From positions 1,553,001 to 1,617,000 of the forward strand of contig CP021371.1 of assembly GCA_002600635.1 (NCBI GenBank): DNA of 64,000 bases. The letters are read 5' to 3'. Shown here piece after piece: positions 2,651 through 9,495 of this stretch. The stretch's first letter is position 1. Each line of letters begins with the position of its first letter. The DNA is from Rhizobium sp. ACO-34A (lineage in GTDB: Bacteria; Pseudomonadota; Alphaproteobacteria; Rhizobiales; Rhizobiaceae). Made by a program: the position numbers and the translations under genes. The notes below the pieces were generated by a model, which saw only the letters and a program-made list of their open reading frames with translations, searched no databases and had not been told where the DNA came from.

Positions 2651-3472
2651 ATGGCATTTTGCAGACGCATGTTTCTTGGCTTCTCATTCGGCTTTTCCGC
2701 CTTTGTTTCTGCCGGATTTCCGGCATTTTCGGCAGAGCCGGTTCATTGCACCGTTATCATCGATGAAGTGAGTGGAGATACGCTTTACCGGAAGGGGCAA
2801 TGCGGGGAAACCTTTTCGCCGATGTCGACATTCAAACTGCCTTTGGCCATGATGGGTTATGACGCGGGCATCCTTCAGGACGAAAGCAATCCTCGCTGGG
2901 ACTATCGCGCGGAACTCGACCGCCCGAAGCGGGAGCAGAAGGCGACTGATCCGACCATATGGGAAAAGGATTCGATCGTCTGGTATTCGCAGGAAATCAC
3001 CCGTCGTTTGGGTGAGCGCCGGTTTGCCGATTATGTCCAGCGTTTCGGCTATGGCAATCGCGATGTGGCCGGCAATTCCGGCAAGAAGGATGGTCTCACG
3101 CAATCCTGGCTGATGTCTTCGCTGAAGATTTCCCCGGACGAACAGGTGGCCTTCCTGCGGCGTTTCCTGACGGGTGGGCTTCCAGTCTCCGCACATGCCT
3201 CCGACATGACGCTTGCGATCGTCCCCCACTTCGCCGCCGGTGACGGCTGGGACATTCAGGGCAAGACCGGTAGCGGTCTCATGCGTGACAAGACGGGCAA
3301 GGCCGACCGGTCACGTCCGCTCGGCTGGTTCGTCGGATGGGCCACCAAGGGTGACCGCCGGGTTATCTTCGCCCGGCTGAATATAGCCAATCGCCCGAGC
3401 GATCAGCCTCTCAGCATCTCCACGCGCGATAGCCTGATCGCGGAGTTTCCGGGGATCGCAACCCGTTTCTGA
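2651..3472 (+). CDS. Class D (OXA-type) beta-lactamase
   Basis: This 273-residue exported serine beta-lactamase has a cleavable signal peptide (about residues 1-28, ending AFSA). All class D motifs are present in order: S59-T-F-K62 (nucleophile and the lysine usually carboxylated), S108-I-V110, Y134-G-N136, W153, and K205-T-G207. It should hydrolyse penicillins and possibly oxacillins in the periplasm; the spectrum cannot be read from sequence. The ATG at 2651 has GGGAG about 8 bases upstream. The gene is transcribed away from ampR, so induction by AmpR is likely. It has the same base composition as its neighbours and no mobile element nearby, so it looks like a resident chromosomal enzyme. 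Confidence 0.9.
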   Translation: MAFCRRMFLGFSFGFSAFVSAGFPAFSAEPVHCTVIIDEVSGDTLYRKGQCGETFSPMSTFKLPLAMMGYDAGILQDESNPRWDYRAELDRPKREQKATDPTIWEKDSIVWYSQEITRRLGERRFADYVQRFGYGNRDVAGNSGKKDGLTQSWLMSSLKISPDEQVAFLRRFLTGGLPVSAHASDMTLAIVPHFAAGDGWDIQGKTGSGLMRDKTGKADRSRPLGWFVGWATKGDRRVIFARLNIANRPSDQPLSISTRDSLIAEFPGIATRF

Positions 3473-4218: not shown

Positions 4219-5007
4219 TCAGATCGAGCTGGCTGCGCCGCCATCGACCCTGAGCATGGTGCCGGTGATGTAGCTGGCCTGCTGCGAGCAGAGGAATGCG
4301 GCGGCGGCGGCAAACTCCTCGACCGCACCCAGTCGCCCGGCCGGGATGGTCTTGATCGAGGCCGCGCGCACTTCCTCGATGCTGCGCCCGGTGCGCTGGG
4401 CATTGGCGCCATCGAGCTCGTCGATGCGGTCGGTGTGGATACGGCCCGGCAGGACCATGTTGGCGGTCACGCCATAGGAGGCGATTTCCGTGGAGATGGT
4501 CTTGTTCCAGCCGACGAGCGCCGAACGCAGGGTGTTGGAAAGCGCGAGGTTGGGGATCGGCTCGAAGACGCCGGATGAGGCGACGGTCACGATGCGTCCG
4601 AAGCCTTGAGTCTTCATCAGCGGCAGGAGCGCGTTGGTGAGCGTGATGACGCGGACCACCATGCTCTGGAAAAAGTTATAGAGCTTTTCCGGGGTCATGT
4701 CCTCGACCGTTCCGGGCGTCGGTCCCCCGGTATTATTGACGAGAATATCGATGCCGCCGAGTTTTTCGTGAACGGCGGCCAGCATGGTGTCGACGAAATC
4801 GGCATCCGAAATGTCTGCCACCACGTATTCGGCCTTGCCGGCTCCGGCGGCATTGATGGCTTCGCAATTGGCCTTCAGCTTTTCGCCGCTACGACCGCAC
4901 AGCAGCACATGCGCGCCCTCTGCCGCGAGCGCCTTGGCTATGCCGAGGCCAAGCCCGCGCGAAGACGCCAGCACGAGCGCGCGCTTTCCCTTGATGCCGA
5001 GATCCAT
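4219..5007 (-). CDS. Atypical short-chain dehydrogenase/reductase
   Basis: This 262-residue protein starts at MDLGIKGKRA with GAAGGA upstream; a longer frame upstream is unlikely. It has the Rossmann cofactor motif ASSRGLGLG (residues 14-22), NNTGG (91-95) in place of NNAGG, and the active-site serine region VASS (142-145). Where classical SDRs have YxxxK, this protein has S157-N-T-L-R161, so the catalytic Tyr and Lys are both missing. A recognisable SDR subgroup carries this change together with NTGGP, so it is probably a family trait and not decay. The reaction is unknown; NAD(P) binding is likely. It is divergent from the autotransporter gene with a 273-bp spacer. Confidence 0.75.
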   Translation of the reverse strand: MDLGIKGKRALVLASSRGLGLGIAKALAAEGAHVLLCGRSGEKLKANCEAINAAGAGKAEYVVADISDADFVDTMLAAVHEKLGGIDILVNNTGGPTPGTVEDMTPEKLYNFFQSMVVRVITLTNALLPLMKTQGFGRIVTVASSGVFEPIPNLALSNTLRSALVGWNKTISTEIASYGVTANMVLPGRIHTDRIDELDGANAQRTGRSIEEVRAASIKTIPAGRLGAVEEFAAAAAFLCSQQASYITGTMLRVDGGAASSI

Positions 5008-5187
5008 GATGTCAGTCCTTCTCTGGAAGTGATTGCGTTGCCGCCACGTTAGCAAGCGCGTGGTGAGAAAGGAAAGGTCCCTGCAAGCGATAACGGTTCG
5101 CCATCGTGTCCCACCGTCAGTGTCGGGATGTTTCTCTGTTCGACGTTGTTGCTGAACGTAAGCCATTCATCACGCGTTACATCCAAA

Positions 5188-5205
5188 ATGTCATAAAGGT
5201 TACAT
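5188..5205 (+). promoter_or_regulatory. PHO-box-like site upstream of the autotransporter
   Basis: ATGTCATAAAGGTTACAT matches 13 of 18 positions of the PhoB consensus CTGTCATAAATCTGTCAT, including the whole TGTCATAAA first half. It lies 76 bp before the start of the surface nuclease/phosphatase gene. This is read by eye against a remembered consensus. The second half-site is degenerate, so PhoB control is a hypothesis. Confidence 0.4.
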
Positions 5206-5280
5206 TTAACTTTGAGATAACCATTGGCGAACGGGAAGAAGCCCGGTTCTGAATAAGAAATATTTCGCCACGGTGATTAA

Positions 5281-8200
5281 ATGTCAAAAAAGTATCATTT
5301 TAATATGCGAAATGGACAGCCCTACGTTCTTCGGCGAAGCCTTGGAGCCTTGCTCTGTGGGGCCGCTTTTCTGGGGGTTGCCATGGCTCCCGCTCACGCT
5401 GCTGACGATGGCACCTTGCGCCTTCTCTCCCTCAACATCTGGAACAAGTTCAAGCAGACGCCGGCAGTAACCAGCGATTTCATGATCAACGGCAACTGGG
5501 ATGTGCTGATGTTCCAGGAGGCCAATGGCAGTAGATACGTGTCGGATATTCCCGGCATACTGAAGGATGCCGGTCTTGGAACCTATGGCGGCAATCTCGT
5601 TGGCGACGTTGGTATCATCTCCCGTCTTTCGGGGACCTACGGCAGCTATCAGGCCCCGGGTCTCAGCACGCAGGGGCGCTATGTCAGCTACCAGATAATC
5701 GACGGCGAAGCCGGAAGGCCGATGACAACCGTCGGCACCGTCCATCTGGACTATAGCGACGAGGCGACCAAGCGGGTTGCCGAGGCCAAGGCACTCAATG
5801 CCTGGGCGAAGACGCAAACCAATCCCCTGATCATCTCGGGCGACTTCAATGCCGGTGACGTTTCCGAACGCGGCCTGCACTCCAAGAGCCAGCAGGAACT
5901 CCTGTTGCGTATCTATACCAAGAGCCCGAACAACAGCTTCTACTACAGTCTCCTCGGGCAGTATGCGAAGGACAAGACGGCTCTGGACAAGTTCATCGCC
6001 GACTGGCGCGGAAAGGGATCAGCGGCAATCGATGCTGCCACAATCCCTTCGGATCTGTTTGCCGATGAGACCTATCCCGTCGCCGGCAACACGCCACAGA
6101 CGATGAACGTTCTGAAGAAGCAGTTCATGCTGCTGCAGACGGATGAGGAGCGTGAACAGTTTGCGCCGCATGAACTCAACGATGGCAGCGCCACATGGCC
6201 GTCGGCCGGTGAGGATGCGACCAACACCTGGGGCAGCTGGCACCGGGTCAAGATCGACCATTTCCTGGCATCGCGGCCGTTCGGCAAATGGTACACGATT
6301 GCCGACGATCCGAACGACCCCTATCTCGGCGTCATCAAGGATGTCTATGTCACCAAGCCTGATGGCTCGACGGCACCTCTGTCTGACCATGAGCCGGTCG
6401 CTCACGAATTCCGCTGGATCGGCCCCGTCCTCGAGACCTACAAGGAAACGGTCAGCGGCGTCGATGTCGACAAGACGCGGATCGTCTGGAGTGAAGATGC
6501 CAATACCTTCAGTGAAAACGGCAAGCAGTTCTACCTGACGCGCAACAACATGCGGCAGGACGTTTATCTCGGCCAGGTTTCCGACGAGAACGGCATGCCG
6601 ATCCTGACCGGTCTGACCGATGCCGAAAAGAAGACGCTTCTCGACTGCAAGAGCACGGATGCACGTTTCCAGCAGGCAATCGCGGAATACTGCATCGACG
6701 ATCACAGCTTTATCGGCGAGACCCTCATCACGGATGGCGGCACGGTCATCGTTGATGAGGATGCCGCTCTCGGCACGTCTGCTGCGGACCTTCGTCTCGA
6801 CAACGGTACCCTGCAGATTACCGGAACGGCCATGACCTCGCTCGACCGCTCTGTGATCCTTGAAGCCGGTGGCGGCACGATCGACGTCAACGACCCCTCG
6901 AACAAGGTGACGATCGTCCGCGAGATTTCCGGCACGGGTTCGTTCACCAAGGCCGGCGCGGGCACGCTGAACCTCACCGCCGACAACAGCTATACCGGCG
7001 AAACCATCGTTGCAGGCGGCCGTCTGGCGGTCAACAGTTCGATCGAGGACTCGGTCCTGACCACTGTTCTGAGTGGCGGCATCCTCGGCGGCAACGGCAC
7101 GGTTGGCGATCTCGTCGTCGAGGCCGGCGGTACGGTTGCCCCGGGCAATTCCATCGGCCGCCTGAACGTTGCCGGTGACGTTACCTTCGAGAAGGGCTCG
7201 ACTTATGAGGCCGAGGTCGATGGCAGTGGTAATTCCGACATGATCTCGACCACGGGCTCGATCACCATCAATGGTGGTTCGCTCTACTTCATCGCGGCCG
7301 GCAGCGGCTACGATCCGCTGACGGATTATACGGTCCTGTCGGCCGGAGCAGGGGTCACGGGCCGGTTCGACAGCGTCGGTTCGGATTTCGCCTTCCTGTC
7401 TCCGGATATGCTCTATTCTGCAACGGGTGTTACCCTGCGGCTTCTGCGTAACGACGTCGGCTTCAGCAGCGTCGGCTCGACGAGGAACCGCATGGCGGCC
7501 GCCGGCGGTATCGAAAGTCTCGGCGCGGGCAATGCTCTTTACGAGGCGGTCCTGCGGCTTGATGCGGCCACCGCTGATGAGGCCTTCCATCAGGTGTCGG
7601 GCGAAATGTATCCCTCGATTGCCGGTGCGCTGGCCGATGACAGCCGCTTTGTCCGGGATGCCGTCGAACAGCGTCTGAGCGGCATGGAAGCGGTAACCGG
7701 CACTGCCGGCCAGCCGGGTGAGGATGCTTCCGGATATCACGCCTGGACCCAGGGCTTCGGCTCCAAGGGTTCCACCGATGGCAGTGGCGTCGATCGGCTC
7801 GACCGCAGCACCGGTGGCCTGCTGATGGGTATCGACACCATGGTGACGGAAGACCTGCGTCTCGGCATCCTCGGCGGCTACGGACGGTCATCCTTCTCGC
7901 AGGGTGGTCAGCCTGCCTCTGCAGATGCCGACAGCTACATCCTCGGCTTTTACGGCTCCACCCGGTTCGACGCCCTGCGCCTGAGCTTCGGCGGCAGCTA
8001 CGGCTGGAACTCGATCGAGGCCGACCGTGACATCTCCTTCGGCAACTTCACCGACAGCCTGAATGCCGATTACGATGCTGCGACCGCCCAGATCTTCGGC
8101 GAGGCAGCCTATCGCATGCAGCTTGGCGATGCGCTGTTCGAGCCCTTCGCAGGGCTGGCCCAGGTCCATGTCTCGACGGATGGCTTCACCGAAGACGGCG

Positions 8201-8550
8201 GTGCTGCCGCACTCTCCGTCGACGACGCCACCTACAACGTGACCTTTGCCAATATCGGTCTGCGTGCGGCCACGGCCTTCGATGTCGGCGGCACCATGGT
8301 TCGCCTCAAGGGGCAGGCATCCTGGCGTCACGCCTTCAGCGACAACAATCCGGATGCGTCGATGGCGCTCGCCGGCGGCTCGGTCTTCGATATCCAGGGC
8401 GCTTCCGCCAGCCGTGATACGGCCGTCGTCAAGGCCGGTATCGACTTCGATGTCGCGAAGAACTCGTCGGTTTCCGTCAACTACGTCGGCGAATTCGCCG
8501 CTGGCGGCGCAGATCACGGCGTCAATGCCGGTTTCAAGCTGAAGTTCTGA
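5281..8550 (+). CDS. Autotransporter with endonuclease/exonuclease/phosphatase passenger
   Basis: This 1089-residue type Va secreted protein has a long signal peptide (residues 1-40, cleavage after AHA). The passenger (about 45-380) is an EEP-superfamily enzyme with all metal and catalytic motifs: N52 in LNIW, E80 in FQE, H155 in TVHLD, D188 and N190 in SGDFN, D326-H327, and D369-H370 in LSDHEP. This fold includes DNases, sphingomyelinases and inositol phosphatases; the substrate is unknown. Residues about 490-700 are Gly/Thr-rich beta-helix with a PATR-type repeat (GTGSFTKAGAGTLNL). The outer-membrane barrel is residues about 819-1089 and ends in Phe. The ribosome site is weak. Scavenging phosphate from extracellular DNA or phospholipid at the cell surface is inferred. 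Confidence 0.88.
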   Translation: MSKKYHFNMRNGQPYVLRRSLGALLCGAAFLGVAMAPAHAADDGTLRLLSLNIWNKFKQTPAVTSDFMINGNWDVLMFQEANGSRYVSDIPGILKDAGLGTYGGNLVGDVGIISRLSGTYGSYQAPGLSTQGRYVSYQIIDGEAGRPMTTVGTVHLDYSDEATKRVAEAKALNAWAKTQTNPLIISGDFNAGDVSERGLHSKSQQELLLRIYTKSPNNSFYYSLLGQYAKDKTALDKFIADWRGKGSAAIDAATIPSDLFADETYPVAGNTPQTMNVLKKQFMLLQTDEEREQFAPHELNDGSATWPSAGEDATNTWGSWHRVKIDHFLASRPFGKWYTIADDPNDPYLGVIKDVYVTKPDGSTAPLSDHEPVAHEFRWIGPVLETYKETVSGVDVDKTRIVWSEDANTFSENGKQFYLTRNNMRQDVYLGQVSDENGMPILTGLTDAEKKTLLDCKSTDARFQQAIAEYCIDDHSFIGETLITDGGTVIVDEDAALGTSAADLRLDNGTLQITGTAMTSLDRSVILEAGGGTIDVNDPSNKVTIVREISGTGSFTKAGAGTLNLTADNSYTGETIVAGGRLAVNSSIEDSVLTTVLSGGILGGNGTVGDLVVEAGGTVAPGNSIGRLNVAGDVTFEKGSTYEAEVDGSGNSDMISTTGSITINGGSLYFIAAGSGYDPLTDYTVLSAGAGVTGRFDSVGSDFAFLSPDMLYSATGVTLRLLRNDVGFSSVGSTRNRMAAAGGIESLGAGNALYEAVLRLDAATADEAFHQVSGEMYPSIAGALADDSRFVRDAVEQRLSGMEAVTGTAGQPGEDASGYHAWTQGFGSKGSTDGSGVDRLDRSTGGLLMGIDTMVTEDLRLGILGGYGRSSFSQGGQPASADADSYILGFYGSTRFDALRLSFGGSYGWNSIEADRDISFGNFTDSLNADYDAATAQIFGEAAYRMQLGDALFEPFAGLAQVHVSTDGFTEDGGAAALSVDDATYNVTFANIGLRAATAFDVGGTMVRLKGQASWRHAFSDNNPDASMALAGGSVFDIQGASASRDTAVVKAGIDFDVAKNSSVSVNYVGEFAAGGADHGVNAGFKLKF

Positions 8551-8573
8551 TTTGAAACAGCCATCCTGAAAAG

Positions 8574-8605
8574 CGAAGGCGGGTCACGGCCCGCCTTCGT
8601 TGTTT
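8574..8605 (+). terminator. Terminator of the autotransporter gene
   Basis: CGAAGGCGGG (8574-8583) pairs perfectly with CCCGCCTTCG (8590-8599) and is followed by the T-rich TTGTTTCTGTT. It is 23 bp after the stop codon. Confidence 0.85.
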
Positions 8606-8712: not shown

Positions 8713-9495
8713 ATGGACAAGAAGACACGCCGTCAGGAAAGCCTGATGAAGCATCTCGAGCAATACCGCTACATCTCGCTTGAGGAGATAGCCACGCGGT
8801 TTTCCGTGACCACGCAGACCGCTCGGCGAGACATTCAGGATCTTGAAATGGCCGGCAAGGTGCGCCGGCTGCATGGCGGCGCAACGATCTCGCACCCGAT
8901 CGATCCTGGCGTCCTTCTGGCCCGGCGCGTCGAGAACGCCGAGGCCAAGGAACGGATCGGCGCCGCCGTCGTCGAGCGAATCAAGGACGGTTCGGCAATC
9001 TTCATCGATACCGGGACAACCTGCGAGGCCGTAGCCCGCGCTCTTCTCGGCCACAAGGGGCTGAGGGTCGTAACCTACAGCCTTCGCGTCGCGACCGTCC
9101 TCAGCGAAGGTGCTGATTTTACCGTCGCCGTGCCGGGCGGTTTCGTCCGCCGGGTGGATGGCGGCGTATTCCGTCAGGACACGCCTGAATTCATCAGCAG
9201 GTTCAAGTTCGATACCGCCATCATCTCGGTCAGCGGCATCGATTCCGCAGGCGACATCGGCGATGACGACCATGCCGAAGTGGCGGCCGTCCAGGCGGCC
9301 ATGAAACAGGCGGAAACCATCATCCTCGCCGTCGACAGCAGCAAGTTCGGCCGCCGTGCGCTGGTCAAGCTCGCAGCTCTGGCAGACATCCACGAACTGG
9401 TCAGCGATGCGCTGCCGGATGCCGATCTCTTGCACAAGCTGAACGAGGCAGGCGTGCGCCTGCTGGTCGCGAACGGATCGCAGGGCACAAGGTGA
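8713..9495 (+). CDS. DeoR/GlpR-family transcriptional regulator
   Basis: This 260-residue repressor has an N-terminal DeoR helix-turn-helix (about residues 6-58), with ISLEEIATRFSVTTQTARRD and the following RRLHGGA hinge. The C-terminal DeoRC sugar-phosphate sensor domain (about 78-235) carries the DTGTTC loop and VDSSKFG motif. The chosen start has GGAGGG 13 bases upstream; an upstream in-frame extension is not family-like. The ligand is probably a phosphorylated sugar or polyol. No transporter or kinase operon lies next to it, so the target is unknown. The neighbouring flavoprotein dehydrogenase is convergent and not an obvious partner. Confidence 0.85.
   Translation: MDKKTRRQESLMKHLEQYRYISLEEIATRFSVTTQTARRDIQDLEMAGKVRRLHGGATISHPIDPGVLLARRVENAEAKERIGAAVVERIKDGSAIFIDTGTTCEAVARALLGHKGLRVVTYSLRVATVLSEGADFTVAVPGGFVRRVDGGVFRQDTPEFISRFKFDTAIISVSGIDSAGDIGDDDHAEVAAVQAAMKQAETIILAVDSSKFGRRALVKLAALADIHELVSDALPDADLLHKLNEAGVRLLVANGSQGTR

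Follow-up and report, generated by a model that had tools for sequence, protein, structure and literature searches.

Type Va autotransporters with enzyme passengers, such as the EprS type with its serine protease passenger, are single polypeptides that join the passenger to a PATR linker and a C-terminal barrel. In the accessible text of a review of type V passenger functions, phospholipases and CDI nucleases are named, and the words phosphatase, sphingomyelinase and DNase are absent (PMC6555100). Members of the EEP superfamily (DNase I, TDP2, sphingomyelinase, BT3783 mannosyl-6-phosphatase) have in common a fold and the invariant residues N, E, H, D-x-N and D-H. Repressors of the GlpR/DeoR family combine a DeoR-type HTH with a DeoRC sensor domain. 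E. coli DeoR senses nucleoside- or deoxyribose-phosphate and is released by deoxyribose-5-phosphate; E. coli GlpR has the recognition helix QTIRRD and operators with the arm spacing of AATGT-N10-ACATT. The accessible parts of two papers describe the release of GlpR by glycerol-3-phosphate (PMC4659176, PMC7567609). Among the papers listed by our literature search, largely from openly accessible journals, we saw neither an EEP enzyme on a classical autotransporter nor a DeoR-controlled autotransporter. Here we describe a locus of Rhizobium sp. ACO-34A in which features of these systems meet, within a 64-kb window (the whole stretch of DNA analysed).

Architecture of the autotransporter gene

The gene at 5281..8550 on the plus strand is an intact open reading frame for 1089 amino acids. 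We found that its C-terminal part matches the autotransporter beta-barrel (residues 821-1068; 7741..8484, plus strand; PF03797, 223.2 bits, cut-off 26), in one reading frame with the passenger, and that the linker contains a PATR repeat (residues 555-584; 6943..7032, plus strand; PF12951, 39.1 bits, cut-off 27), a combination that assigns the protein to type Va. The EEP catalytic domain, at residues 50-370 (5428..6390, plus strand), was recognized by Pfam (PF03372, Exo_endo_phos, 33.4 bits, cut-off 24.5), by alignment and by comparison of structure model m5d19c9c15725 with the PDB, which recovered the EEP fold. Residues N52, E80, H155, D188, N190, D326, H327, D369 and H370 were invariant in an alignment of 22 sequences. 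A sequence-only reading of this DNA had described a surface-anchored EEP-family hydrolase that retains the catalytic motifs (N52, E80, H155, D188, N190, D369 and H370) and is fused to a PATR linker and a barrel, a description that sequence and predicted fold support. Overall, these analyses support the assignment of 5281-8550 to an EEP-family hydrolase autotransporter, with predicted display at the cell surface.

The fold comparison placed TDP2, neutral sphingomyelinase and Bacteroides EEP phosphatases within about 1 Z of each other, on a list that lacks ExeM and does not exclude the families absent from it; no one subfamily stood out. DNA, phospholipid and inositol phosphates, the substrates suggested by the sequence-only reading, are candidates that these comparisons neither favour nor disfavour. 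A phmmer search of solved structures with the passenger returned no EEP chain, only chance matches. The hydrophobic N-terminus ends, by eye only, in AHA-A near residue 40. A search for passenger homologues of similar length, a limit that bars full-length autotransporters, returned 7 proteins. The nearest named relative found is Rhizobium daejeonense, with 97% amino acid identity over residues 1-430.

Upstream, on the minus strand, lies a short-chain dehydrogenase gene identified by domain search (4219-5166). A terminator-like stem-loop of 13 pairs, a pattern match only, separates the autotransporter from the regulator gene (8572..8601, plus strand); the region has three such stem-loops against 2.9 expected in shuffles. 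A sigma-70 promoter scan gave one minus-strand match, equal to shuffles.

Inverted repeats before the gene and the PHO-box reading

The sequence-only reading had also reported a PHO-box-like string at 5188-5205 and proposed PhoB control under phosphate shortage. The string is present, with 13 of 18 PHO consensus positions, and it sits inside a palindrome at 5187..5206, AATGTCATAAAGGTTACATT, our candidate operator 1, which fits AATGTNA-N6-TNACATT at 12/12 positions and is kept in relatives. This 12/12 form occurs only once in the 6.28-Mb genome, at 5187-5206. Candidate operator 2, AATGTCAAAAAAGTATCATT, lies 93 bp from operator 1 at 5280..5299, fits 11/12 positions and includes the ATG start codon within its left arm; it is among four places genome-wide with a one-mismatch palindrome. 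With up to two mismatches allowed, we counted 62 palindromes in the genome against 15 for a reversed control, so other regulators with the same geometry may exist.

The motif was spotted by eye on the upstream regions of the window and of loci L018-L035, where it is therefore in-sample. An unbiased 5-base dyad scan ranked AATGT-N10-ACATT first, with exact matches in 9 of 12 representative upstream regions, whereas across 200 shuffled sets no inverted dyad was present in more than 2 regions. Among direct repeats, the leading one occurred in 3 of 12 regions, against up to 2 in shuffles, and its period is other than 11 bp.

We then counted sites in 57 loci (the window, L018-L035, L071-L075 and L083-L115, with L083 and L094 repeating L023 and L032). 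In 53 of them, the 620 bp before the passenger include a site that fits at 10/12 positions or more; the exceptions are L024, L034, L112 and L113. Outside the discovery set, with the two repeats left out, 34 of 36 loci have one. Elsewhere in the same loci, only 13 such sites occur in 757,152 positions, or 0.011 expected per 650 bp. Two sites of at least 10/12 are present in 26 of the 57 loci, spaced by 30, 71, 83 or 93-96 bp. Loci of the window's type (the window, L018, L071-L075 and L093) have the second site 93-96 bp on, and in all eight its left arm holds an ATG in the autotransporter frame. The AATGT and ACATT arms hardly vary among 45 distinct sites, partly by construction because the sites were chosen for them (the dyad scan is the unbiased test), and the inner bases are A-rich. 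Three of the four inner pairs match less often than when shuffled, so the symmetry of the site rests on its arms.

As given in the accessible part of the source, a PHO box consists of two CTGTCAT direct repeats with a 4-nt spacer (PMC3131613). PhoB bound to such a direct repeat would induce the surface enzyme when phosphate is short. In line with this, shuffling the 320-bp upstream region gave 13/18 or better in only 3 of 100 trials, and 13/18 is the best score in 14 of 19 upstream regions, nearly always at the palindrome, because the ATGT...ACAT arms resemble the repeats. However, scores of this quality are common. Within the window, 13/18 is also reached at three places other than the site and operator 2, a rate at which about 295 (~300) are expected per genome. 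Over the repeat positions alone the site has 10 of 14, and about 3,800 (3,831) equally good places are expected per genome, and its second repeat, GTTACAT, agrees with CTGTCAT at only 4 of 7 bases. Furthermore, the dyad scan was led by an inverted repeat and not by a direct one with an 11-bp period, and in the Cereibacter locus, where the palindrome is retained, the PHO score is 10/18, a value that shuffles also reach. The genome does have a 14/14 CTGTCAT-N4-CTGTCAT box elsewhere, at C1:937707.

The sequence-only reading had named a PhoB score below genomic background as evidence against its proposal; in our test, which counted consensus matches in place of a PhoB matrix, the score lies at background, close to that mark. 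What is conserved is an inverted, not a direct, repeat, which tracks the neighbouring DeoR/GlpR-type gene. We therefore rejected PhoB control, which we regard as very improbable. As this case shows, an operator of another kind, itself conserved, can lie hidden beneath a 13/18 match to the PHO box. Separately, the C1:937707 locus includes an open reading frame that resembles, by eye, a Pit phosphate transporter.

The DeoR/GlpR-type gene and its co-inheritance with the enzyme

Behind the autotransporter, a gene at 8713..9495 on the plus strand encodes a DeoR/GlpR-family regulator of 260 amino acids, the proposed reader of both operators. Its start was set by alignment at ATG 8713; the mechanical open reading frame begins at TTG 8626. 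Both family domains were found well above their cut-offs (HTH_DeoR, PF08220, 59.5 bits against 21; DeoRC, PF00455, 153.9 bits against 31.8), and the recognition-helix motif VT-x-QTARRD is invariant in 14 aligned regulators. The protein is nearest to GlpR models, below their cut-off (NCBIfam equivalog PRK10906, 200.5 bits against 331), and it matches a solved deoxyribose operon repressor in a profile search (E 2.4e-17).

Two roles of the enzyme were considered. It may be a phosphodiesterase or phosphatase acting on phospholipids or phosphorylated glycans, with the freed glycerol- or sugar-phosphate as the repressor signal, a role that we find plausible but somewhat short of an even chance: the GlpR equivalog cut-off was missed, and the Martelella neighbours are not shared by most lineages; near L085, L088-L090 and L099 there are ABC ATPase-permease pairs of lower similarity. 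More doubtful is a role as a secreted-side DNase, or another nuclease, for which extracellular DNA would be a food source or a material to remodel; in that case the regulator would sense a nucleoside- or deoxyribose-phosphate, like DeoR of E. coli.

A similar DeoR-type gene (at least 227 bits) adjoins the enzyme gene in 48 of the 57 loci, either behind it on the same strand or divergent in front; in L033 it is upstream on the same strand. No adjacent regulator was seen in L023, L024, L083, L101, L108, L110, L111, L112 or L113. Eight genomes were searched for an unlinked orthologue, with G400 as the positive control. Four (G109, G200, G207 and G438) have sites before the enzyme and an orthologue elsewhere in the genome, which in G438 lies beside its other enzyme copy. 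No orthologue was found in G111, G323 or G085; the last two also lack a site, and G111 (locus L111) has an 11/12 site and only a paralogue-level match of 212 bits. Conversely, L034 has an adjacent regulator and no site at 10/12. Over 55 loci, adjacent regulator and site occurred together in 46, regulator alone in 1, site alone in 5 and neither in 3 (Fisher p 0.008, from related loci, so that the counts are not independent). The regulator gene of the window is itself preceded by no site that reaches 10/12, leaving autoregulation unsupported there. Around the unlinked regulator copies (L128-L130) we saw no shared metabolic neighbour. Open reading frames that resemble RepA/RepB by eye lie near the copies in L128 and L129.

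The presence of the two genes is closely matched. Among 60 genomes (its own and relatives), regulator (E <= 1e-60) and enzyme occur in exactly the same 7. Among 394 family genomes, for which the best four or six candidates at most were scored per genome, 32 have the enzyme (E <= 1e-15), and 29 of these 32 also have the regulator orthologue (E <= 1e-95), which none of the 362 genomes without the enzyme has. The three enzyme-bearing genomes that lack the orthologue are G085, G111 and G323. The 1e-95 threshold was set after we saw a gap between orthologues (3e-104 or stronger) and paralogues (2e-62 or weaker). In a sample of the class, 2 of 385 genomes carry the enzyme. Apart from antisense frames and the synteny between L018 and the window, enzyme and regulator alone recur widely in 19 loci; the next recurring cluster, of ABC-ATPase-like open reading frames, appears in 6 of the 19, in varying places.

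This co-inheritance with a DeoR-type gene is left unexplained if the palindrome is read by a global regulator of the CRP/FNR type, for example Clr with cAMP. Such sites have TGT-N10-ACA geometry too: the half-site spacing here equals that of the Clr consensus HGTYHCNNNNGRWACA in the accessible part of its source (PMC10127613), and the genome-wide excess of near-matches over the control points the same way. However, the published core, GTNNCNNNNGNNAC, fits only 3 of the 45 distinct sites, and the window's site, which lacks the C of this core, is not among them (PMC10127613). We do not favour Clr/CRP control and judge it quite unlikely.

The passenger is also found on 15 plasmid records, from Ensifer, Martelella, Shinella, Qingshengfaniella, Phyllobacterium and one labelled Dysgonomonadaceae. 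Three were inspected; both annotated ones have a DeoR/GlpR gene beside the passenger, and the third lists no genes. In place of a barrel, the Qingshengfaniella plasmid homologue (P0003, 724 amino acids) has a VPLPA-CTERM-like C-terminal tail, which scored 21.5 bits against a cut-off of 25.35. Even so, its gene is preceded by a 10/12 site and followed, 37 bp on, by a DeoR/GlpR gene, which suggests from this one case that the regulator goes with the EEP module and not with the barrel.

The locus is also present in G020 (L075) and G001 (L074), both of the same genus, with most flanking DNA 86-91% identical to the window's; 5185-5442 is 75% identical in G001. The regulator is 99% identical in amino acid sequence in G020 and 94% in G001, and residues 441 onward of the autotransporter are mostly 82-100% identical, except near 721 (72%) and near 801 (65% in G001). 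Over the EEP part (residues 41-440), identity is only 42-72%, and around residues 201-240, where the G020/G001 version has an insertion, it drops to 15-32%. The DNA alignment breaks at 5442 and resumes near 6063. Outside the pair, the front half of the G020 protein is nearest to L115 (66%) and L034 (54%). These alignments are most simply read as an exchange of the EEP module at a constant locus, with regulator and barrel retained.

A proposed cassette and its closest known systems

We consider it likely that the locus is a two-gene cassette, in which a surface EEP enzyme is paired with its own DeoR/GlpR-type repressor, which acts via palindromic operators and is released by a phosphorylated small metabolite. 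The proposal builds on the architecture, the conserved active site, the predicted fold, the conserved sites and the near-perfect co-inheritance of enzyme, sites and regulator that we observed. Gene 1, the type Va autotransporter, would expose a phosphohydrolase or nuclease of the EEP fold on the outside of the cell, and gene 2 would encode the enzyme's own DeoR/GlpR-type repressor, which would bind the AATGTNA-N6-TNACATT operators before gene 1. On comparative grounds, the regulator at 8713-9495 probably reads both operators, and we infer that it represses. The second operator would act across the start codon, 93-96 bp on; at roughly nine helical turns from the first, looping or start-site occlusion is possible. 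A phosphorylated small metabolite would then lift repression, as known for GlpR. Because GlpR and DeoR are both released by phosphorylated ligands, the analogy suggests a phosphorylated product of the enzyme as the signal; the regulator's ligand, presumed to derive from that product, would probably be a sugar- or polyol-phosphate. With a dedicated repressor, the enzyme's substrate becomes a testable question: the phosphorylated metabolite that frees the repressor from its DNA site should indicate what the enzyme breaks down.

More speculatively, the EEP enzyme might move horizontally across alpha-proteobacteria as a unit with a DeoR-type repressor and operators that serve it alone. Such a unit would swap the anchor (barrel or VPLPA-CTERM tail) and preserve the switch as divergent alleles of the EEP module replace one another, and the repressor would report the enzyme's own imported product.

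Compared with EprS, the linker and barrel are similar in sequence (NF051851, residues 552-1088, 424 bits, cut-off 1700), whereas the passenger is an EEP-fold metallohydrolase instead of a serine protease. The passenger shares the fold and invariant residues of the EEP superfamily but has its own signature, GDxNAGDVxERG (22 sequences), and a long insert between residues 190 and 326. Similarly, the product of 8713-9495 has the two domains of GlpR/DeoR repressors, but its recognition helix reads QTARRD where E. coli GlpR differs, it falls below the GlpR equivalog cut-off, and its gene is coupled to that of a surface enzyme and not to a catabolic operon.

Barrel fragments and a beta-lactamase-like neighbour

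We searched the whole genome for autotransporter barrels and obtained eight matches, seven of which were above the cut-off. Among the eight was a barrel fragment (L007) at G000:C1:1539112-1539477, in an open frame of 151 aa, ∼13.5 kb before the window. Within the window, a class D beta-lactamase-like ORF lies at 2651-3472 (+); it scored 339 bits against NF000270, exceeding the cut-off of 280, and 364 bits against the OXA-18 model, under that model's cut-off of 540.

Divergent and interrupted copies among relatives

At the sister-species loci L075 and L074, the EEP module (window 5443-6062) is divergent from that of the window, while the rest of the locus is ∼90% identical. Both loci carry an insertion in their version of the module, to which the versions of L115 and L034 are nearest. 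We also observed the autotransporter frame split into pieces in two relatives (L019, 5845-9226; L035, 5944-7736), and one in-frame stop codon in the match of L096 to the DeoR/GlpR-family regulator (G264:C38:211534-212298).

The passenger in other hosts and on plasmids

A passenger 66% identical to that of the window was found at L024 in Biostraticola tofi, an enterobacterial genome; neither the regulator nor a site with at least 10 of 12 matches to the palindromic operator was present in the 13 kb of locus examined. Two plasmid records matched the passenger at equal identity (H11 and H12): CP070278.1 (246,192 bases), labeled Dysgonomonadaceae, and NZ_CP066788.1 (246,197 bases), from Martelella. 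The taxonomic label of one may therefore be wrong. On a Qingshengfaniella plasmid (L133, 4896-7070), an EEP and PATR passenger as in the window ends in a VPLPA-CTERM-like tail that replaces the barrel.
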